DNA of 22,064 nt. Origin: a virus. Below, one piece after another: positions 4,812 to 19,694 of the stretch (position 1 is the first letter of the stretch; the number at the start of each line of letters is the position of its first letter). The position numbers and the translations under genes are program-made. The notes below the pieces were generated by a model that saw only the letters and a list, made by a program, of their open reading frames with translations, did no database searches and was not told the DNA's origin. The stretch lies in the IMG/VR virus record IMGVR_UViG_3300032308_001010, positions 1 through 22,064 of that record. One strand, given 5' to 3'.

Positions 4812-5201
4812 CTAATACCAGCCGTAGCCGGTCTTTGCTTTTTGTTGTTTCCAGTGAGTCCAAGCTGCGCAAGGGCCGCCTGATCCATATCGTCGTCCGA
4901 TATAGGCTAGGGCTGCGATCGTCTGGCTCACTCTGGATTCAGGGTGTCGCATTCCTAGATTCTTGTATGTGCCGGCAAGGAGTTGACCCACGCCCTTTGC
5001 AGAGCTTTGTGGGTTATTGACGGATTGCCACGCGCTCTCCTTGCCGATTAATTGCGCGAAGCATTTGTATTGCTGTGGCTGCAGCAATTCTCGGGCGAGC
5101 ATCTTTGGATCGATGTGTTGCATCGGTGTCCTCTGCTCGTAAATGACCGGCGGTGTTGCCGGGGCTGGTGTTAAGGCTGTCGCTGCGATTGTGCTCGTCA
5201 C
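4812..5201 (-). CDS. small lytic-transglycosylase-like (SLT-type) protein
   Basis: This 129-residue protein has the soluble lytic transglycosylase hallmarks. A catalytic-type glutamate lies in GKESAW (about residue 54), followed by NPQSSAKGVGQLLAGTYKNLG, which matches the conserved S-x-x-G-x-x-Q segment. Then come TIAALAYIGRRYG and a C-terminal GGPCAAWTHW. Such domains cleave peptidoglycan strands. The N-terminus (about 25 residues) is Ala/Thr/Pro-rich but not clearly a signal peptide. The GTG start overlaps the WhiB gene stop as GTGA. Its place inside the early replication block, far from the late lysis cassette, is unusual. It may act in host-envelope remodelling or be a structural enzyme expressed out of block. 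Confidence 0.78.
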   Translation of the reverse strand: MTSTIAATALTPAPATPPVIYEQRTPMQHIDPKMLARELLQPQQYKCFAQLIGKESAWQSVNNPQSSAKGVGQLLAGTYKNLGMRHPESRVSQTIAALAYIGRRYGSGGPCAAWTHWKQQKAKTGYGWY

Positions 5202-5662
5202 CGTTGAGATTCCAATGATGAAGATAAATCGTCGGATTGAATATTTCTGATCTGGTTTGATTGGTCTTCTCGCTTTCTCGCCTTGTTTGCTTCAGTGAAG
5301 ATCCGGTAAACCTGGGTCACTCTGATGCCTACTTTTCTGGCGATTTCGTCTGTTGAGATTCCTTGATCGCGTAGCTTGATGATGCGCTTCTGGCGCTCCA
5401 TCTTCTGGTCGCGTTTCAAGTTCTGGCCCCTCTCGGACGGCGTCTTGCCGCCCCAGATGCCATGTGGGATCTCTTCTTTGATGGCGTATGCCAAGCATTC
5501 CTTTCTTTCAATACAACCACCGCATATTTTGCGAAGGTTTGGGAGGCGCTCTGCCTCTTCTACTTTCCCTTCCGGGAAGAAATAATCAGGATCGCCAATT
5601 TCGGCGCAGGCTGCGTGCTCGAAGAGCTGCACGAATGGGAGGTGCTCTGTGGTTCTAATCAT
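5198..5662 (-). CDS. WhiB-family iron-sulfur transcription regulator with C-terminal HTH
   Basis: The first 80 residues carry the WhiB signature: a lone cysteine (AACAE, residue 19), then CGGC (47 and 50) and a further cysteine (56), which together would ligate a 4Fe-4S cluster, followed by the G(I/V)WGG turn (GIWGG, about residue 69). The C-terminal half adds a basic helix (KMERQKRIIKLRDQG) and a helix-turn-helix-like stretch ISTDEIARKVGIRVTQVYRI. At 154 residues it is longer than most host WhiB proteins. WhiB proteins bind the host sigma factor and redirect transcription, so this is probably an early or middle regulator of phage or host genes. It is the best host marker in the window. The start overlaps the preceding gene by eight bases. 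Confidence 0.92.
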   Translation of the reverse strand: MIRTTEHLPFVQLFEHAACAEIGDPDYFFPEGKVEEAERLPNLRKICGGCIERKECLAYAIKEEIPHGIWGGKTPSERGQNLKRDQKMERQKRIIKLRDQGISTDEIARKVGIRVTQVYRIFTEANKARKREDQSNQIRNIQSDDLSSSLESQR

Positions 5663-6005: not shown

Positions 6006-6344
6006 TTACTTTACAATTTCCAATCTTGGCGTTGCTGGTTCTCTGATCGCTCGAACGGTGATGAGGATCTGTTCTGCCAAAGTCAGCGCTTCGTCTTGGC
6101 TCATGTTTGCAATCAGTAGAGCTGTTGGATCTAGTTTCTCGCGATGTTTGGAATATCGATCAAAGCCTTCTTCTGTCTTGAGGCTTTCAACTTTGCCATA
6201 ATCGGCCAAGTCTGCGATGTAGTCCGGGTGGACTTCGTTGCCGGTTTCTTCTATCAAATCAAGGACGGCATCTCGTTCTTCTAAATAAATCGCTAGGCGT
6301 CCTTCGTTGCCATGAACTGAAAATAAAGGCTCGCGATATTTCAT
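6006..6344 (-). CDS. hypothetical phage protein, 112 aa
   Basis: I do not recognise this protein. It is acidic and mostly helical by eye, with no cysteine pairs, membrane segment or nucleotide-binding loop. The middle (HPDYIADLADYGKVESLK) and the end (DEALTLAEQILITVRAIRE) suggest two amphipathic helices. It is the second gene of the leftward early operon. Its ATG overlaps the upstream stop as ATGA and its stop abuts the resolvase start. Confidence 0.75.
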   Translation of the reverse strand: MKYREPLFSVHGNEGRLAIYLEERDAVLDLIEETGNEVHPDYIADLADYGKVESLKTEEGFDRYSKHREKLDPTALLIANMSQDEALTLAEQILITVRAIREPATPRLEIVK

Positions 6345-6499
6345 CGGCGGATTGCCTTTGTGATCTTGAGTTGCTTGCTTTCGTATTGCATGGCTTCTCG
6401 GATCTGTTCTTCAAGTGGGTCATTCTGCCATCGCAATAATAATGCGGTGATAATTCCTGCCGCTGCAATCCCTGCTCCGATGATGAGTTGTACTTCCAT
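6341..6499 (-). CDS. small single-pass membrane protein, 52 aa (first gene of early operon)
   Basis: The protein starts with a hydrophobic segment, roughly residues 3-22 (VQLIIGAGIAAAGIITALLL), which would span the membrane once. A charged amphipathic tail with alternating Lys/Glu follows. The frame stays open to 6598, but the ATG at 6499 has a GGGGG Shine-Dalgarno four bases upstream and was preferred. It is the first leftward gene after the divergent intergenic region, so it should be expressed early. The function is unknown; small early membrane proteins of phages often target host envelope processes or superinfection, but nothing here shows that. Confidence 0.7.
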   Translation of the reverse strand: MEVQLIIGAGIAAAGIITALLLRWQNDPLEEQIREAMQYESKQLKITKAIRR

Positions 6500-6625
6500 C
6501 TTTCCCCCGATCTTGTGGCGCTGTGCCTTATTGTCGCCAATTGTGGGGGCTACTGGGGCTGTTTGTGGGTTAGCCACGCCGTTGCTCCGCCGGGGCACTG
6601 GCGCTCACGCTCAGTTTGCCCTGCC

Positions 6626-6634
6626 TGTGGATAA
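6626..6634 (-). promoter_or_regulatory. consensus DnaA box
   Basis: The minus strand reads TTATCCACA, the exact DnaA-box consensus, in the middle of the divergent intergenic region. Only one perfect copy was seen, so it may be a host-DnaA binding site for an origin or a regulator site, or a chance match to a nine-base word. Confidence 0.4.
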
Positions 6635-6708
6635 AACTCACAAGGTTCAGGCGCGTTGCTGTATTGCTTATTGTATGGACAAGCCCTAAGTTATGGGTGT
6701 GGGCAAGA

Positions 6709-6736
6709 GGGGAAACTCCCCGAGGCCTACGGGGGG
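6709..6736 (+). promoter_or_regulatory. two mutually exclusive hairpins covering a ribosome binding site
   Basis: Hairpin A is GGGGA-AAC-TCCCC (6709-6721). Hairpin B uses the same C-run: CTCCCCG (6716-6722) pairs with CGGGGGG (6730-6736) around the loop AGGCCTA, with one G-U pair. The G-run in hairpin B is the Shine-Dalgarno of the gene starting at 6744. If A forms the site is free, and if B forms it is hidden. This would be a simple on/off leader for the rightward operon. It is seen in sequence only; no ligand or protein is known. Confidence 0.4.
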
Positions 6737-6743
6737 TAATAAA

Positions 6744-7046
6744 ATGTCAGTCTTAACTCTTGAAGATTTAATCGTCGAAGCCGTTACCGAGCTTGCGATC
6801 TCTGGCGAGTGCGATGTTCCGGTTGATAATAGATGGAACGGCGCTGATCTCGTTTCTGCTGGTTATTACGAGAAGGTTCCTTATGCCAGAGGTTACAGCA
6901 TGAAGAATGGCGTGCGTCTAACTGTGGAAGATGAAAGCATTCATATTTACAAGATTGAGAACTGGGGAACTTCTGCTCATGTTCAATTCTCTGGTGAGAT
7001 GGTTTCTTCTTCTGTGTTCGTTGCGATCGTGAAGGAGTGGATCTAA
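6744..7046 (+). CDS. hypothetical phage protein, 100 aa (first gene of rightward island)
   Basis: I do not recognise this protein. It is acidic with mixed helix and strand: an N-terminal helix (LEDLIVEAVTELAI), then beta-like segments rich in Tyr, Val and Ile. It has one cysteine and no membrane segment. An in-frame start exists at 6693, but the ATG at 6744 has the G-run Shine-Dalgarno seven bases upstream, which the upstream start lacks. It is followed directly by the next gene (TAATG overlap). Confidence 0.75.
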   Translation: MSVLTLEDLIVEAVTELAISGECDVPVDNRWNGADLVSAGYYEKVPYARGYSMKNGVRLTVEDESIHIYKIENWGTSAHVQFSGEMVSSSVFVAIVKEWI

Positions 7047-7282
7047 TGTCTCAGCGTCTATGGGTTTCTGATAATGGCGATGTGGTCTGCGAAGATCACA
7101 CTGGAATGTATCTTCGTTGCGCAATTGAAGCGAAGCCGAAGGCGGTCAAGCATCGCACTCCGCTTGGCAATTGGTCGCTCTATTTCACGCATCTTCTTGG
7201 TGGCGAGAATCTGGTCTGCGAGACTTGCGTTCCCTGGAATTCTCCTGATCATCCTTCTAATAAAATGAAAGCAGGTGCATAA
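7046..7282 (+). CDS. hypothetical phage protein, 78 aa
   Basis: I do not recognise this protein. It holds four cysteines, two of them as a CETC pair late in the protein (about residues 58-61), which could be half of a metal site. The ATG at 7046 overlaps the previous stop (TAATG) and has GAAGGAG upstream at normal spacing. The stop overlaps the next ATG in the same way. Confidence 0.7.
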   Translation: MSQRLWVSDNGDVVCEDHTGMYLRCAIEAKPKAVKHRTPLGNWSLYFTHLLGGENLVCETCVPWNSPDHPSNKMKAGA

Positions 7283-7464
7283 TGTCTTGGTATAAATTGG
7301 TTTCCGATACAAAGGTTGCAGGCTTGCCTGATTGCGAGGCTTGCGATGGTCGCTGGCAGGCGATCTTCAAGAAGCAATATCAACTTCCAAATGGCGATCG
7401 CTACTGGATGGATGTTTGCGTCTTCTGCTCCGGAAAAAACCGCGATTTCGAGGTGCAGTCATGA
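7282..7464 (+). CDS. small zinc-ribbon-like protein, 60 aa
   Basis: Two CxxC pairs (CEAC near residue 18-21 and CVFC near 46-49), separated by a strand-rich middle, give the spacing of a small treble-clef or zinc-ribbon fold. Nothing else identifies it. It overlaps both neighbours (TAATG before, ATGA after). Zinc-ribbon miniproteins in phages often bind nucleic acid or host transcription machinery, but no target can be inferred here. Confidence 0.7.
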   Translation: MSWYKLVSDTKVAGLPDCEACDGRWQAIFKKQYQLPNGDRYWMDVCVFCSGKNRDFEVQS

Positions 7465-7619
7465 GCAATAATTCTTTCTTTTGTGAGTGCGCTCTTTGTG
7501 GTTTCAATGCCGTTCTGGTTTATCGCTGGTATCAATACGACAATGGTGAACAGTCGCGGATTCCAGTTTGTCCTGCATGTGCCAATCTTCATGATCTTCT
7601 AGTGAAAGGTAAGAAATAA
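7461..7619 (+). CDS. second small zinc-ribbon-like protein, 52 aa
   Basis: A cysteine cluster CECALC near residues 8-13 and CPAC near 37-40 form a second two-knuckle metal site in the gene right after a similar protein. The two share size and layout but little sequence, so they may be old paralogs or convergent. The start at 7461 overlaps the previous stop as ATGA. The function is unknown. Confidence 0.7.
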   Translation: MSNNSFFCECALCGFNAVLVYRWYQYDNGEQSRIPVCPACANLHDLLVKGKK

Positions 7620-7790
7620 ATGGGTGCTATGAAAGCCGTTCTAATGGATATCAGCGAGGGCATGACTCTTGCTGGTCGCAATCTGGTCGATTCTGCTGAG
7701 GCACAGGATCCAGAATTGATGGAGGCGGTTATGGTCAATATCTTAGATTCCCTGCCTTCTTATCTGAAAGCTTTGAGAGGTGAAGCGTGA
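7620..7790 (+). CDS. small hypothetical protein, 56 aa
   Basis: I do not recognise this protein. It is methionine-rich (seven in 56 residues) and looks wholly helical (MTLAGRNLVDSAEAQDPELM and a second helix ending KALRGEA). The ATG at 7620 follows the previous TAA without a gap, and ATG 7629 is an alternative. The stop overlaps the next GTG as GTGA. Confidence 0.65.
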   Translation: MGAMKAVLMDISEGMTLAGRNLVDSAEAQDPELMEAVMVNILDSLPSYLKALRGEA

Positions 7791-7954
7791 AAATGGATCC
7801 GAAGTTCGTGCGTCGTCGTCGCGCAGTGGCGATCGTGATCGGCTTGCTCTTGCTGAGCCTGTTCACATATGCCACTCGCGATGTTTGCTGGACTGGTTCT
7901 GGCTATGGCTCTTGCTCTGTAATGATTGACGAGGTGATCTCGGATGGCCGTTAA
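7787..7954 (+). CDS. small signal-anchor membrane protein, 55 aa
   Basis: An arginine-rich start (FVRRRR) is followed by one hydrophobic segment (AVAIVIGLLLLSLFTYA, about residues 15-31), then an external tail with two cysteines (DVCWTGSGYGSC) that could form a disulfide. This fits an N-in, C-out anchor. The GTG at 7787 is coupled to the upstream stop, and an ATG two codons later (7793) is equally possible. The function is unknown. Confidence 0.65.
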   Translation: MKMDPKFVRRRRAVAIVIGLLLLSLFTYATRDVCWTGSGYGSCSVMIDEVISDGR

Positions 7955-8075
7955 GAAGGCGCGTTCCGTCCGGGTGTCCGATTCCCTGTGGCAAGCGGTC
8001 AAAGATAAGGCTGAAACGGATCAGAAATCGGTCAGCGAAGTCATCGTGGATGCCCTGAAAGCCTACGTGCGATGA
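7944..8075 (+). CDS. ribbon-helix-helix DNA-binding protein, 43 aa
   Basis: The sequence has the minimal Arc/CopG plan: a basic strand (KKARSVRVSDSLW), a first helix (LWQAVKDKAE), a turn, and a second helix (VSEVIVDALKAYV). At 43 residues it is about the smallest working form of the fold and would act as a dimer. It probably represses its own operon or another phage promoter. It overlaps the upstream gene by eleven bases and the next as ATGA. Confidence 0.8.
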   Translation: MAVKKARSVRVSDSLWQAVKDKAETDQKSVSEVIVDALKAYVR

Positions 8076-8314
8076 ATTGGTGGCATCTAATCTCTGCGCC
8101 TTTGGCTGGCATCCTTGCTCTGGCTTATGGTCGTCGGATCTGGTTCTGGTTTGCTGTGGGTTTATTCTTTGGATTCTGGTCTTTATTGATCGTGCTTCTG
8201 CCTAGAAAGGAGTTGCGCGTTCCCACTCTTCCCGATTGGTTCCTTGTCTATTGGGGCAATCGGGCGATTGCAAAGGAGATGCGATCTATCCGGGATCCAT
8301 CCGATCTCCTTTAG
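8072..8314 (+). CDS. membrane protein with two hydrophobic segments, 80 aa
   Basis: Residues 3-20 (WWHLISAPLAGILALAYG) and 23-43 (IWFWFAVGLFFGFWSLLIVLL) are strongly hydrophobic and tryptophan/phenylalanine-rich. They are followed by a basic junction (PRKELR) and a soluble C-terminal part of about 30 residues. It is the last gene of the rightward island, ten bases before the terminator stem. The topology is holin-like, but it is distant from the endolysin, so another membrane role is as likely. Confidence 0.7.
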   Translation: MNWWHLISAPLAGILALAYGRRIWFWFAVGLFFGFWSLLIVLLPRKELRVPTLPDWFLVYWGNRAIAKEMRSIRDPSDLL

Positions 8315-8323
8315 CGAGAAATG

Positions 8324-8361
8324 CCCCCCACCGCCTGTTTATTGGCTGTGGGGGGTATTTT
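8324..8361. terminator. bidirectional Rho-independent terminator between convergent operons
   Basis: CCCCCCAC (8324-8331) pairs with GTGGGGGG (8348-8355). One mismatch follows and then GCC/GGC continues the stem around the loop TGTTTATT. On the plus strand it is followed by TATTTT (8356-8361). It lies exactly between the stop of the rightward island and the last late gene on the other strand, so it probably ends both transcripts, most efficiently the rightward one. Confidence 0.88.
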
Positions 8362-9224
8362 CATGCCTTGAGCGCCCTAGCGATTCCTTCTTCTAGGCTG
8401 ATCTTTGGCTCGTAAATCTGGAACATCTTTGTGGGGTCGCCTACTCGGTATTCGACTCCGCTTGGCTTTCCTGGGTGCTTCTTAATCGGTGCGAGGTATC
8501 CCTGCGCCAACATGATCATCTCTGCGAGCTGGATGAATGAAGTCGGTCGTCCGGTGCAAAGGTTCAAGGTTTGGATGTCGTTTGTGATCGCTTCGAACGT
8601 AGCTGCAACGACGTCGTCTATGTGAATAAAGTCGCGCACTTGCTCGCCTGTTCCCCATACTTCGAATGGGTCAAGTTTGGCTTTGCCGCGTGCGATCAAT
8701 GATGGGAATGGGTAATCGAGCGCTTGGTCGCTGCCATATCCGCTAAATGGGCGCAGGATGTTGACTTTGATTCCTTCTGCTCTGGCGTATTTTGCCAAAG
8801 TCTCGCCGGTCAATTTTGCCCATCCATAACTGAAATCTGGCGTGCGAATGTGGTCAAGATTGATGTCGCCTTCTCGAAGGCGTTGCTGGTAGGCGGCTCT
8901 TTGTAGGTAGATCGGATAAGCCGCCGAGCTGCTGTAATAAACGAGATGCTTTGGCTTGGTTCGCACCGCCCACTGGAACATGTCGCTGTCGATCGCGAGG
9001 TCGCTGGCAACGGCCAAAGGGTTCCCTTCAATCGTGGCTCTGCCGCCGACGATCGCGGCGAGGTGAATAACGACGTCGTATCTGGTGTCGTCCTTCTTGA
9101 AGAAATCCCTGCAATCAATTCCGTTTGCGATGTCGATGCCGGTGATCTCATGGCCTTTGTCGTCTAGTGCTCTGTGGAAAGCGCGGCCAACGAAGCCGGC
9201 GTCTCCTGTTATTAGAATTTTCAT
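8361..9224 (-). CDS. NAD-dependent sugar epimerase/dehydratase (extended SDR)
   Basis: This 287-residue extended short-chain dehydrogenase has the nucleotide-binding TGDAGFVG near the start, then HLAAIVGG (about residue 55), the serine segment YYSSSAAY and the catalytic YGWAK pair (Y and K four apart). A late RDFIHIDDVVAAT block is typical of UDP-glucose-4-epimerase and GDP-sugar epimerase relatives. It would interconvert a nucleotide sugar in the cytoplasm. The neighbouring genes are two glycosyltransferases, so it likely supplies their donor. The ATG at 9224 overlaps the upstream stop as ATGA, the common junction here; ATG 9233 is an alternative. It is the last gene of the late block. Confidence 0.9.
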   Translation of the reverse strand: MKILITGDAGFVGRAFHRALDDKGHEITGIDIANGIDCRDFFKKDDTRYDVVIHLAAIVGGRATIEGNPLAVASDLAIDSDMFQWAVRTKPKHLVYYSSSAAYPIYLQRAAYQQRLREGDINLDHIRTPDFSYGWAKLTGETLAKYARAEGIKVNILRPFSGYGSDQALDYPFPSLIARGKAKLDPFEVWGTGEQVRDFIHIDDVVAATFEAITNDIQTLNLCTGRPTSFIQLAEMIMLAQGYLAPIKKHPGKPSGVEYRVGDPTKMFQIYEPKISLEEGIARALKA

Positions 9225-9937
9225 ATGAGCCATTCTGTCAGGTATTTGTCGCTTCCTGATTCGCTCTTTGCCATCGCCTGGTCAATGCTGAAGACGAAGC
9301 GATCGTCTGCTTCTAAAGCTGCCCCTATGTGGTGCAGAGTGGCCTTCTTTGCGATCGGAAATGACCGGCGCTTGCTCTGGCCTTCTGTGGGGGTTTCGTA
9401 GCTCTCATCGTGTATCAGGGTGCTGTCCTTGATCAACGGCCAAATGTAGGCTGCCAGCCAGTCCTGGTCTTGCGTGTAGTAATTCTTCGCCGCTTCTGTT
9501 TCGTGCAAATCTGCCGGGATTGCCCTGGTTCGAGCTGCAAACATGCCGGCGCTGATCTTGTAATTGTGGCCTGTGGGGTGGTCTTTCATAATGTGGAAAT
9601 CAAGGCCGCTTGCCAGAAACTCTTCGTGTGCGATCCGTTCCCGGTGCGTCAGTCTGGCATCCGCATCCCGGCTGAGAACGACGTCGAAGTCCTGGTCTGC
9701 CAAAGCCTGAAATCTCCAAAGTTTGGCTGTGTGGTCTTCTGGCCCATTCTGCTCTTCTAGCTGCACGTGGGGGAAGAGCTGCAATGTTTGCTTGATGGAT
9801 TCTGGAACGCTTGCCCCGGTGTAAAAGCGCAGTGTGAATCCTTTGAAGTGCCTAGTTGCCAGAATTGCGTTTTTGATCGCGCCGATCGTGTATCGCTCTT
9901 CGCTGCCGTATAACGAGTAGGCGATGAGCTGCTTCAT
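9221..9937 (-). CDS. glycosyltransferase, GT-A type, 238 aa
   Basis: The protein opens with a Rossmann-like strand and SLYGSEERYTIGAIKNAILA. A DxD-type motif sits in VVLSRDADARL (about residues 87-97), the metal and nucleotide-sugar site of GT-A enzymes. Late residues (KDHPTGHNYKISAGMFAAR) resemble the acceptor-side region of phage and bacterial glycosyltransferases of unknown linkage. It is coupled to the next gene upstream by ATGA and downstream to the epimerase, so the three act together. The likely target is a virion protein or host-surface glycan; the sequence does not say which. Confidence 0.8.
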   Translation of the reverse strand: MKQLIAYSLYGSEERYTIGAIKNAILATRHFKGFTLRFYTGASVPESIKQTLQLFPHVQLEEQNGPEDHTAKLWRFQALADQDFDVVLSRDADARLTHRERIAHEEFLASGLDFHIMKDHPTGHNYKISAGMFAARTRAIPADLHETEAAKNYYTQDQDWLAAYIWPLIKDSTLIHDESYETPTEGQSKRRSFPIAKKATLHHIGAALEADDRFVFSIDQAMAKSESGSDKYLTEWLI

Positions 9938-10874: not shown

Positions 10875-11069
10875 CTACTTTGCTCCGCGTCCGAATTCGG
10901 TTGCTTTAGGATCGATCGCCTTCAAGATTGGCCCGGCGACTGCTGCGATTCCTGCTGCAAGATATTCCTTCAGTGGGCGGTTTGGATCTGCAAGATAAAG
11001 AGCTGCGATTGCCGCTGCTCCTGCTCGCAGGTAGGTCATGATGATCGCTTCAAGTTTGTTCTTATCCAT
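10875..11069 (-). CDS. small hydrophobic protein, possible holin, 64 aa
   Basis: Two hydrophobic stretches (about residues 10-30, MTYLRAGAAAIAALYLA, and 38-52, LAAGIAAVAGPILKAI) are separated by a short Asp/Pro/Arg turn, which fits a two-pass hairpin. The gene directly follows the endolysin, and a good Shine-Dalgarno (AAGGAGA) precedes the ATG at 11069. The position suggests a holin or holin partner, but the hydrophobic segments are short and alanine-rich, so this is moderate. Confidence 0.65.
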   Translation of the reverse strand: MDKNKLEAIIMTYLRAGAAAIAALYLADPNRPLKEYLAAGIAAVAGPILKAIDPKATEFGRGAK

Positions 11070-11571
11070 TTGTGATCTCCTTAAATTTAGGGCGTCCAAA
11101 TCCTACGATAAAGACTGGAATTGATGGCTTTACTTTGCCGCGATTCTTCTTCTTAAATGCTCGAATCTTCTGGCAAACTTCGCCGCCGTTGCGCTGGTCG
11201 CCCTTCTTGTCCGGGCTGGTGTTGCCTTCAATTGTGGTCACTGTGCCGTTGCCGTTATTGCTGATTACGATTCCAACGTGTGAAATGCGATCGAGCGCAT
11301 CTCCTGGAAAGTCAAAGAAGGCTATATCGCCTGGCTGTGGATCTGCTACTTCTGCAAGTGTCCAAGCGTTCTTGTCCATGAATGCTGTTGCTCCTGCTGG
11401 CGTGTATGTGCAGTTTGGAATCTTGATGCCGGCTTGCTTTGCGCACCAGTTCACGAATGCTCCGCACCATGCTTGCTTTGGCTTCTGATATTTTGTTTCG
11501 TTATCTTGAGGCCCTTCAATGTAGCCGAGTTCTGCTTTGGCTACATCTAGAAACTTCTCCAGTTGATTCAT
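11062..11571 (-). CDS. CHAP-domain endolysin
   Basis: This 169-residue protein has the CHAP amidase/peptidase core: the catalytic cysteine in WCGAFVNWCAK (about residue 36), PGDIAFFDF (about 80-88), the catalytic histidine in SHVGIVI (about 97) and a downstream EGN. It would cut peptide bonds or the amide link of host peptidoglycan at lysis. No separate wall-binding domain is evident; the basic tail after residue 135 (KKKNRGKVK) may serve that role. The gene overlaps the upstream membrane protein as ATGA and is followed by another small hydrophobic protein, forming a lysis cassette. Confidence 0.88.
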   Translation of the reverse strand: MNQLEKFLDVAKAELGYIEGPQDNETKYQKPKQAWCGAFVNWCAKQAGIKIPNCTYTPAGATAFMDKNAWTLAEVADPQPGDIAFFDFPGDALDRISHVGIVISNNGNGTVTTIEGNTSPDKKGDQRNGGEVCQKIRAFKKKNRGKVKPSIPVFIVGFGRPKFKEITNG

Positions 11572-11786
11572 TTCCTGCCCCCTCTTGGTTTGCTGTTTTC
11601 TAAGAGTAGGGTATAAATCTCATCCACTCTGGTTTCAACTCTGGAAATTCTATCGCTTACCGAGCTGCCGCCATTGGGTTTCAATTCGGCCAGATAATGC
11701 TTGACTAGCCATCTGGTGATCGCTGCAAATGCTCCGGCGATCGTAATAATTGAAACCGTCAAGGCTGCGTAATCCTGCGCTGTCAT
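11568..11786 (-). CDS. holin-like membrane protein with coiled-coil tail, 72 aa
   Basis: One transmembrane segment (about residues 6-27, YAALTVSIITIAGAFAAIT) is followed by a basic junction (KHYL) and a heptad-like helix (SDRISRVETRVDEIYTLLL), then a basic end. This single-pass plus coiled-coil design is common in holins next to endolysins. A longer frame exists, but the ATG at 11786 overlaps the previous stop (ATGA) and was chosen. Confidence 0.72.
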   Translation of the reverse strand: MTAQDYAALTVSIITIAGAFAAITRWLVKHYLAELKPNGGSSVSDRISRVETRVDEIYTLLLENSKPRGGRK

Positions 11787-12037
11787 TGGTTGACTTCCAA
11801 AATGTAAACAAGGGCGGTTCCGGTATTGGTTACGGCCCATACTTCTGTCGTCGCTGGCAGGTGCATTATGTCGTGGCTGTTGTTGTCGATCTTGGCTCCG
11901 TTTGAAGTGCTGACGGTGTTATCTCCGCCGATCCAAATATTGCCAGATTCGTTATGAATGTGGACTTCCCTGAAAATGTTGCCGGTTGCCACGATCTTCG
12001 TGGGGCTAGTCGTTACTGTCACTTGCGATGTGCGCAC
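11783..12037 (-). CDS. small virion-associated protein (hypothetical), 84 aa
   Basis: The product is beta-rich and polar throughout: VTVTTSPTKIV, EVHIHNESGNIWIGGDN, EVWAVTNTGTALVYILEV. From memory, similar short all-beta proteins (with the IWIGG and VTNTGT segments) lie in tail or lysis regions of many phages and are annotated as structural or hypothetical. The GTG start at 12037 has a strong AGGAGA Shine-Dalgarno. It may be a decoration or fibre-tip domain; no function can be stated. Confidence 0.7.
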   Translation of the reverse strand: MRTSQVTVTTSPTKIVATGNIFREVHIHNESGNIWIGGDNTVSTSNGAKIDNNSHDIMHLPATTEVWAVTNTGTALVYILEVNQ

Positions 12038-18876: not shown

Positions 18877-19281
18877 TTATGTTGTTGTCTTCGTAATTGC
18901 GCCGGAGATCGGCCAAGTTACAGATGCTGTTGCTAATTCGCCGACGGATCCATTTAGCGGAGTCCATTCAGAGACAAGCGTAGAGAATTGGTACTGCGGA
19001 TTTACTGTTGTTGTTGTTCCTGCTACTGGCTTTGCAACGACTGAGACTGCTGTTCCGAGCAACGGATAGATTGTTTGCTCGACTGCTGATGTTGCGTAAT
19101 CCTGGTGAAATTCAAACGTCACAGAATTGTCTGCAAGACCGGCAACACGTGTCTTTGCTGTGTTTCCGAACGCAGTGGTTTCGACGATGTCGTATGTTGA
19201 ATTAAGCGTGATGCTTGAAATATATGTACTCAGATCGGTGCTTCCGAATACAACGGATGCGTTTGTTAGTACAAGTCTTGC
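18877..19281 (-). CDS. tail-tube protein, second paralog
   Basis: This 134-residue protein aligns end to end with the gene just upstream, about two-thirds identical by eye, with fully conserved blocks TYDIVETTAF, AKTRVAGL, EFHQDYAT, VEQTIYPLLG, SEWTP and NGSVGELATASVTWP. The longer in-frame start at 19323 lies inside that gene; the ATG at 19281 begins MARLVLTNA like its paralog. Tail-tube proteins polymerise into the hollow tail. Differences lie mainly in the first 30 residues and at 80-100, likely the surface loops. It precedes the tail chaperone. Confidence 0.88.
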   Translation of the reverse strand, partial: ARLVLTNASVVFGSTDLSTYISSITLNSTYDIVETTAFGNTAKTRVAGLADNSVTFEFHQDYATSAVEQTIYPLLGTAVSVVAKPVAGTTTTVNPQYQFSTLVSEWTPLNGSVGELATASVTWPISGAITKTTT

Positions 19282-19283
19282 CA

Positions 19284-19694
19284 TTATGCGACCGCCTTCG
19301 TGATTGCTCCGGTTACTGGCCAAGTTACAGATGCTGTGGCCAATTCACCGACGGATCCGTTTATCGGAGTCCACTCTGAAATAATAGCAGAGCAGGTATA
19401 ACTTGGATTGAATGCGCTGGTGCTTGAGCCGTTTGGCTTTACGATCACTGCTGATGCTTGTCCGAGAAGTGGGTAGATTGTCTGCTCTACTTCGCCGGTT
19501 GCGTAGTCCTGGTGAAATTCCAGGGTGATTGAGTTGTCTTCTAATCCAGCAACACGTGTCTTTGCTGCTGTTGATGAGAATGCGGTGGTTTCAACGATGT
19601 CATATGTTTCGTTGAGTGTTACTGACGCGACCAAATCGCTCAGATCCACTCCGCCGACGGAGATAAATGCGTTAGTGAGAACTATGCGAGCCAT
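19284..19694 (-). CDS. tail-tube (major tail) protein, first paralog
   Basis: This 136-residue protein is beta-rich with the same blocks as the next gene. The small size, position after the connector genes and before the chaperone, and the alternating strand pattern are those of siphovirus major tail proteins in actinophages. The ATG overlaps the previous stop (TAATG). One of the two copies is presumably the bulk tube subunit; the sequence does not show which. Confidence 0.88.
   Translation of the reverse strand: MARIVLTNAFISVGGVDLSDLVASVTLNETYDIVETTAFSSTAAKTRVAGLEDNSITLEFHQDYATGEVEQTIYPLLGQASAVIVKPNGSSTSAFNPSYTCSAIISEWTPINGSVGELATASVTWPVTGAITKAVA

Follow-up and report, generated by a model that had tools for sequence, protein, structure and literature searches.

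A candidate modular operon of tiny genes with an exchangeable front and a nearly fixed core in a probable uncultured actinophage

Control elements ahead of small phage genes

The promoter early stem-loop (PeSL) of T4-type phages was reportedly described by Arbiol in 2010 and by Comeau in 2014. PeSLs are described in PMC4503421. In the T4-type variable regions, small exchangeable genes follow a promoter-like block joined to a stem-loop, the promoter/stem-loop unit can be copied and reused with other genes, and the element occurs in many copies and at high density. A second comparison is offered by the start-associated sequence (SAS) of the cluster K mycobacteriophages, which the portion of PMC3203893 drawn on here portrays as a 13-bp repeat present 11-19 times in a genome, with 17-bp inverted repeats accompanying half of the copies; in these actinobacterial phages, SAS/ESAS is a conserved inverted-repeat element placed just upstream of the start codons of non-structural genes. 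A third one is provided by the MabR prophage of Mycobacterium, whose genes 85 and 87 are homologues (43%) of one of the genes described below (g2).

The locus considered here lies in a 22,064-base IMG/VR virus record, which was analysed over its whole length and is called the window. As in the PeSL regions, a promoter-like block and a hairpin head exchangeable small genes, and the unit has been reused, as witnessed by its second copy in one relative (L168). While the PeSL is present in many copies, one copy per contig is found here, and we therefore set the island beside the PeSL regions and do not count it as a member; furthermore, the phage is not T4-like, and its cargo, rich in zinc-type proteins, is followed by a nearly fixed core of ribbon-helix-helix (RHH) and membrane proteins. 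With the SAS/ESAS elements the leader of the island shares its inverted-repeat character and its position, but it is single and about 90 bp long. Both comparisons were made by description. We regard it as rather probable that the island is a modular operon, probably an early one, that combines a promoter-hairpin leader with a fixed RHH/membrane core and exchangeable tiny proteins.

The phage and its genome

Read from its right end at 22 kb, the window carries head and tail genes, by matches to PHROGs families, as far as about 12 kb, followed by endolysin, glycosyltransferase and epimerase genes; beyond the island lie genes for RusA-like, WhiB-like, exonuclease, methyltransferase and polymerase/primase proteins. 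These matches suggest a siphovirus-like phage. Two adjacent genes (18877-19323 and 19284-19694) both match the major tail protein family phrog_4574, which suggests a tandem duplication. In the WhiB-like protein (5198-5662), the C-terminal part matches the helix-turn-helix (HTH) portions of families that include invertase.

WhiB serves as a marker for actinobacterial hosts in the parts of PMC6802176 and PMC10202952 used here, and among the named polymerase matches (the best 15 of 39 records) Arthrobacter phages rank at the top with 40-46% identity. Judged from such matches, the window probably stems from an uncultured actinophage. The label "freshwater" would be borrowed, by analogy, from the kind of phage treated in the cited parts of these two papers, and not from the window's own sample. 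No DNA-level match was found in named phages, either for the window or for the island of the relative L013.

Architecture of the island

An earlier sequence-only reading had described an inverted island of eight coupled genes bounded by a control region and a terminator. Its layout agrees with the ORFs and with their neighbours: eight ORFs of 43-100 codons occupy positions 6744-8314 on the plus strand between two minus-strand blocks, with a right neighbour at 8361-9233 and a left neighbour at 6341-6598 as listed, or at 6341-6499 from the ATG preferred by eye. The seven junctions between the genes are overlaps of 1, 1, 4, 0 (touching), 4, 11 and 4 bases, the coupled ATG having been chosen over the longest listed frame for g1, g2 and g4.

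All on the plus strand, the front genes are g1 (6744-7046; 100 aa), which is the most frequent among 13 alternative first genes and has a predicted alpha-beta4-alpha fold (pLDDT 81); g2 (7046-7282; 78 aa), which encodes a CxxH...CxxC zinc-type protein with homologues in Mycobacterium prophages; and g3 (7282-7464; 60 aa) and g4 (7461-7619; 52 aa), which encode paralogous ribbons with two CxxC pairs each (CxxC...CxxC). The core comprises g5 (7620-7790; 56 aa), helical and with an MGAxK start; g6 (7787-7954; 55 aa), with a basic N-terminal end, one hydrophobic segment (residues 11-34) and a Cys-containing tail; g7 (7944-8075; 43 aa), an Arc-like RHH protein; and g8 (8072-8314; 80 aa), a membrane protein with a strong hydrophobic segment at residues 22-45. 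The hydrophobic segments of g6 and g8 correspond to the two membrane proteins of the earlier reading.

Codon bias alone did not separate these eight genes from competing ORFs. In each of them, differences at the third codon position exceed those at the first and second positions, and no in-frame stop is present in the homologues (10-49 related loci per gene, 4-49 of them sufficiently close and long for use; 4 relatives only in the case of g4). The third-position excess rules out that the ORFs arose by chance, and by this comparison of sequences the eight genes are real.

The 3' end of the island is marked by a terminator-like hairpin that can form on both strands (8318-8362), in which CCCCCC (8324-8329) faces GGGGGG (8350-8355). 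The region 8300-8375 folds with -34.3 kcal/mol on the plus strand (z -4.55) and with -31.3 kcal/mol on the minus strand (z -3.95), none of 200 shuffles being as good in either case; this makes the hairpin a putative two-way terminator. A simple terminator scan did not list the hairpin at 8318-8362. Just upstream of it, at the extreme end of g8, lies a 20-nt imperfect inverted repeat (8272-8312; 80%). In L168, the space that separates the island terminator from the epimerase gene is occupied by many tandem copies of a short unit resembling AATCATCGCTC, which form a long array (L168:6300-6600), and L146 likewise has a long spacer at this place.

A variable front and a nearly fixed core among relatives

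Homologues of island genes were found in 167 other uncultured viral contigs, both flanks being visible in 100 of these. The resulting 168 mapped sequences include the window; 28 loci had been removed (23 contig repeats, L001, which is the window itself, and four named records). The module is oriented against both flanks in 94 of the sequences, along both in 7, next to a single visible flank in 66 (where some loci obtained with g3/g4 may belong to other modules) and without a visible flank in 1. We call an island close when the epimerase is at least 85% identical and both the left flank gene and g8 are present, a definition that yields 54 islands (the window and 53 relatives), 45 of them non-redundant.

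All 54 close islands are inverted, while the 7 co-directional modules among the 101 two-flank sequences are all distant relatives. "Inverted" is thus a fitting description of the window's clade and not of the module as such, and the orientation of the island seems to follow the clade. An invertible segment was rejected in view of the 94 modules that lie against their flanks as opposed to 7 along them, the close islands all lying against; a search for an inverted repeat of at least 12 bases joining both ends of the window's island found none.

The twelve nearest flank genes are present in every close relative whose contig reaches them. Within the island, by comparison, g1 was found in 39 of the 53 close relatives, g2 in 17 (and hence is absent from 36), g3 in 33 and g4 in 12, while g5 is present in 50 and g6, g7 and g8 in all 53, the last by selection. 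The 54 close islands display 38 gene orders, an approximate count because the ORF caller misses some genes (such as g3 in L010), and one from which V17, V65, V91 and V92 (readings of the control region) as well as V140 and V141 were left out. Identity also jumps from gene to gene: in the mosaic island of L018, g1 stands at 55% and g8 at 95%. Median identities overlap (59-90% for g1-g8, 65.8-96.6% for the flank genes), so that the island is not distinguished by identity alone. The gene-content comparison agrees with the accessory island that had been proposed, and as judged from it the island is a module with a variable 5' front and a nearly fixed 3' core (g5-g8).

A change in gene content is not unique to the island. 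Among the 19 close relatives whose contigs extend to the polymerase gene, only 2 were found to have the DNA methyltransferase gene at 1593-2960, which marks a second variable spot in the window.

KAGA or KVGA forms the C-terminus of many cargo proteins that are otherwise unrelated, since their last codons overlap the ribosome site and start of the next gene, as read from the sequences. Such common joints may help the exchange of genes.

The leader and its reuse with unrelated genes

The conserved block upstream of the first gene ends in a run of G and AAAATG or similar; in the window, a G-rich putative ribosome-binding stretch together with the start codon of g1 (GGGGGGTAATAAAATG) occupies 6731-6746 on the plus strand and is conserved in the alignment of 41 leaders (34 distinct). 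A putative promoter-like site, read by eye from the conserved leader, would consist of TTGCTT (6664-6669) and TAAGTT (6687-6692) with 17 nt between them (6664-6692, plus strand); a consensus promoter scan did not return this site. It is followed by a 5' leader hairpin (6699-6730, plus strand) with the outer stem GTGGGC/GCCTAC and the inner stem GGGG/CCCC.

Two leader types, GTGGGC/GCCTAC and ATCGGC/GCCGGT, retain one outer stem, and L010 and L184 combine the outer stem of one type with the inner stem of the other. Pairing is possible in 95.1% of the cells, as compared with 86.4% in shuffled and at most 55% in slid controls, and 17 cells are altered on both sides versus 4.2 in shuffles, numbers that derive from related sequences with few independent changes. 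Two of five covariation measures did not rise above shuffling (double-change pairs, 77/500; further pair types, 498/500). Taken together, covariation within this set of sequences argues for the leader hairpin. The window's own 161-nt leader folds no better than its shuffles (z -0.32).

Model R1, which was built largely from the same loci on which it was run, matches the leader in 37 of 47 sources and always at the island; the ten sources without a match are distant ones, and an extra match in L072 (E 0.67) was dismissed as chance-level. There is one leader copy per source in 36 of the 37 matched sources and two in L168, where the second 120-bp copy (95.8% identical) stands within the island ahead of a different gene. 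Exact leader cores across the viral collection, counted in 36 and 11 contigs of which many are fragments, are likewise single in 46 of 47 and double only in the L168 contig; three further contigs with an exact leader core also carry it at this island. As in the PeSL regions, the leader unit stands ahead of unrelated genes: 38 leaders precede 13 families of first proteins that lack mutual similarity at E 1e-4, with g1 as the first gene in 21 of the 38. Rfam returned two matches, both far under the gathering scores. In distant loci, hairpins upstream of the first gene were seen as single minimum-energy folds (12 sequences, one unrelated pattern match among them).

The upstream dyad

Further upstream, the inverted repeat CCTGTG-N9-CACAAG(G) at 6624-6645 (no strand assigned) is a candidate operator. 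The pattern CTGTG-N5..13-CACA[GA] is found upstream of the island in 41 of the 54 close islands, with just two further occurrences in those loci, and the full dyad is absent from the other 13. Its spacer is 9 or 11, which is unusual for a dimer operator. A single TGTATATACA precedes the first island gene in 13 of 55 sequences, each of these 13 being a distant relative. Judged by their position and sequence, the dyad and TGTATATACA fit a regulated promoter, possibly under the control of g7.

The dyad of the window holds a DnaA-box-like TGTGGATAA (6626-6634), and in several relatives another TGTGGATAA lies within the epimerase region. A reading of position 6626 as a DnaA box or replication origin is weakened by relatives that keep the dyad arms but alter the box (CCTGTGGGCCTGGCTTTCACAGG).

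The products of the island

Searches of Pfam, PHROGs, NCBIfam, PADLOC and, for g1, g2, g3/g4 and g5, the PDB gave no confident function for the eight products except g7. This protein matches the Arc-like family phrog_6506 (E 1.6e-11), in accordance with the earlier RHH call, and scores 16.5 bits against Pfam RHH_1, below the cut-off of 20.5. None of the eight products matches a structural or replication family. The statement that the others lack recognised homologues holds for named families, including the named phages, in which neither g1 nor a relative of g5 was matched; at the sequence level, scans of uncultured viral contigs found g1 at 14 loci, g2 at 49, g3/g4 at at least 80 (of 87) and g8 at 64. 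Zinc-type products are present as predicted, but they number three and not two, namely g2 (CxxH..CxxC) and the paralogues g3 and g4 (CxxC..CxxC).

Among these, g2 is the best delineated. W6, C15, H18, G20, Y22, H36, T38-P39-L40, Y46, C58 and C61 are invariant in all 24 aligned sequences, the window included, and the invariant residues, C15, H18, C58 and C61 among them, are present in both Mycobacterium prophage homologues aligned. It also has relatives in three prophages of Mycobacterium (42-43%) and in one plasmid of Dermacoccus (39%, E 4e-5); 22 pattern matches to cellular homologues in one scan of genome contigs yielded none that was confirmed. In the MabR prophages, the g2 homologue (L061:8030-8230; L062:6001-6201) differs from that of the island in its annotated neighbours and shares 8 bases with an ADP-ribosyl glycohydrolase gene; from this arrangement a functional tie of g2 to that enzyme is possible. 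A known fold for g2 was discarded because no PDB match was obtained (Foldseek gave E 2.2 at best, and no VIA Z exceeded 2.5), the sole notable structural match being an uncharacterised viral protein (1.8e-8). The cargo family V18 (L115:1654-1902) shows a g2-like CxxH...CxxC with a nearby W but no detected similarity; it is a possible distant relative of g2.

The structural matches of g1 were set aside, since the best Foldseek E was 0.35 and all VIA matches stayed below Z 8 (Mediator, 7.6; type III chaperone SycT, 7.0; immunity protein TriTu, 6.2). The profile matches of g5 were discarded as well, as they were designed helical proteins.

Proposed operation of the island and alternative explanations

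We suggest that the conserved promoter-like block and 5' RNA hairpin (6664-6746) drive the variable cargo, here g1-g4, and then the core g5-g8, with transcription starting early in infection from the divergent control region. The leader hairpin might cap and stabilise the message or tune its translation, and the closing hairpin would end the island transcript and could also stop the opposing one. The RHH protein g7 may bind the upstream dyad and shut the operon down, while the membrane proteins would act at the cell envelope. Cargo genes would be swapped between phages, with breaks at the start codon that follows the leader and at the short overlaps of stop, ribosome site and start. In a bolder version, which we consider improbable, the leader is a docking site for gene capture, a cassette-exchange anchor through which proteins of 35-80 residues, mostly zinc ribbons, would rotate ahead of a constant RHH/membrane control core, each of them directed against a different host factor or defence.

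Alternatively, the island might be the immunity or lysogeny-control region of a temperate phage, with g7 as the repressor, the divergent region as the switch and the small genes serving conversion or superinfection exclusion. Its location between the late and replication modules, where the integrase and repressor of the Arthrobacter phage Peas also sit, would suit such a role, as would the divergent control region, the RHH regulator, the dyad and the Mycobacterium prophage region with the g2 homologue, whose genes are thought to be mostly lysogeny-expressed in the portion of PMC9434293 used here. Yet a tyrosine integrase (PF00589) was found in none of 14 records, possibly fragments, and a resolvase-type recombinase (PF00239) or ParA-type ATPase (PF13614) in none of 20, some longer than 31 kb and again possibly fragments; an HTH_3 search of 20 records gave three matches at E <= 0.001, none above the cut-off. 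A terminase was found in only 5 of the 20 records, which leaves their completeness uncertain, and a repressor of an unknown kind could have escaped these searches. On balance, we think a lysogeny-control region rather unlikely.

The core could also be an addiction or exclusion module in which g7 and g8, together with g5 and g6, pair an antitoxin-like RHH regulator and a small membrane protein that acts as a toxin or in exclusion, the 5' genes being passengers. RHH domains are common in antitoxins, and g7 and g8, with an overlap of 4 bases, occur together in all 53 close relatives (g8 by selection). We hold this to be quite doubtful, as no toxin family match was found for the island products and distant loci such as L031, L036 and L041 match g7 but not g8, although a diverged g8 could escape detection. 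A role of the small genes in lysis, as accessories of the holin, anti-holin or spanin-like kind, is highly improbable, despite two membrane proteins and an L059 island that lies about 1.6 kb from an endolysin match, because the window's endolysin (11062-11571) is on the other strand, four genes away, and has a small hydrophobic neighbour of its own (11568-11840), and because zinc ribbons and RHH proteins are not usual lysis parts.

Zinc-type cargo and a candidate role in host interaction

Under the modular operon that we prefer, the cargo proteins would bind host targets, and host takeover or counter-defence is a plausible candidate role. Two zinc-type ligand pairs are found in 10 of 40 island families (V17, V65, V91 and V92 left out; some of the 40 are single, possibly spurious ORFs) as compared with none of the 28 other window genes tested. 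One to four such two-pair genes are present in 53 of the 54 close islands; in the remaining one, L010, the ORF caller missed a g3 match. Searches of known takeover and anti-defence families gave no confident match among the eight window products. Thin hints of an anti-defence role come from a weak match of g4 to the Lar-like restriction alleviation family phrog_6422 (E 0.0084) and from a C5 DNA methyltransferase-like gene (L057:7734-8465) inside the small-gene region of a co-directional, distant clade.

Tiny phage genes usually remain orphans. Since the front genes change behind one shared start signal, the island is a good place to seek phage tools against host cells: it offers one bounded slot, defined by position, leader and core, that can be mined across uncultured actinophages, each gene after the leader being a candidate host-interaction protein. 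It also provides a natural test of whether promoter-hairpin cassettes aid gene shuffling outside the T4-like phages.

In the wider cargo sets, single matches to RusA, head, HslV-like, excisionase/BldC-like and terminase families were obtained; these sets include distant loci with loose island borders, and nothing is drawn from such matches. A PADLOC match to mad1 (E 3.8e-10) in a distant locus (L140:7130-7309) concerns a short HTH protein. The co-directional island region of L037 contains an ORF of 543 aa (L037:6844-8475), presumably a lyase of the adenylosuccinate lyase type to judge from a motif.
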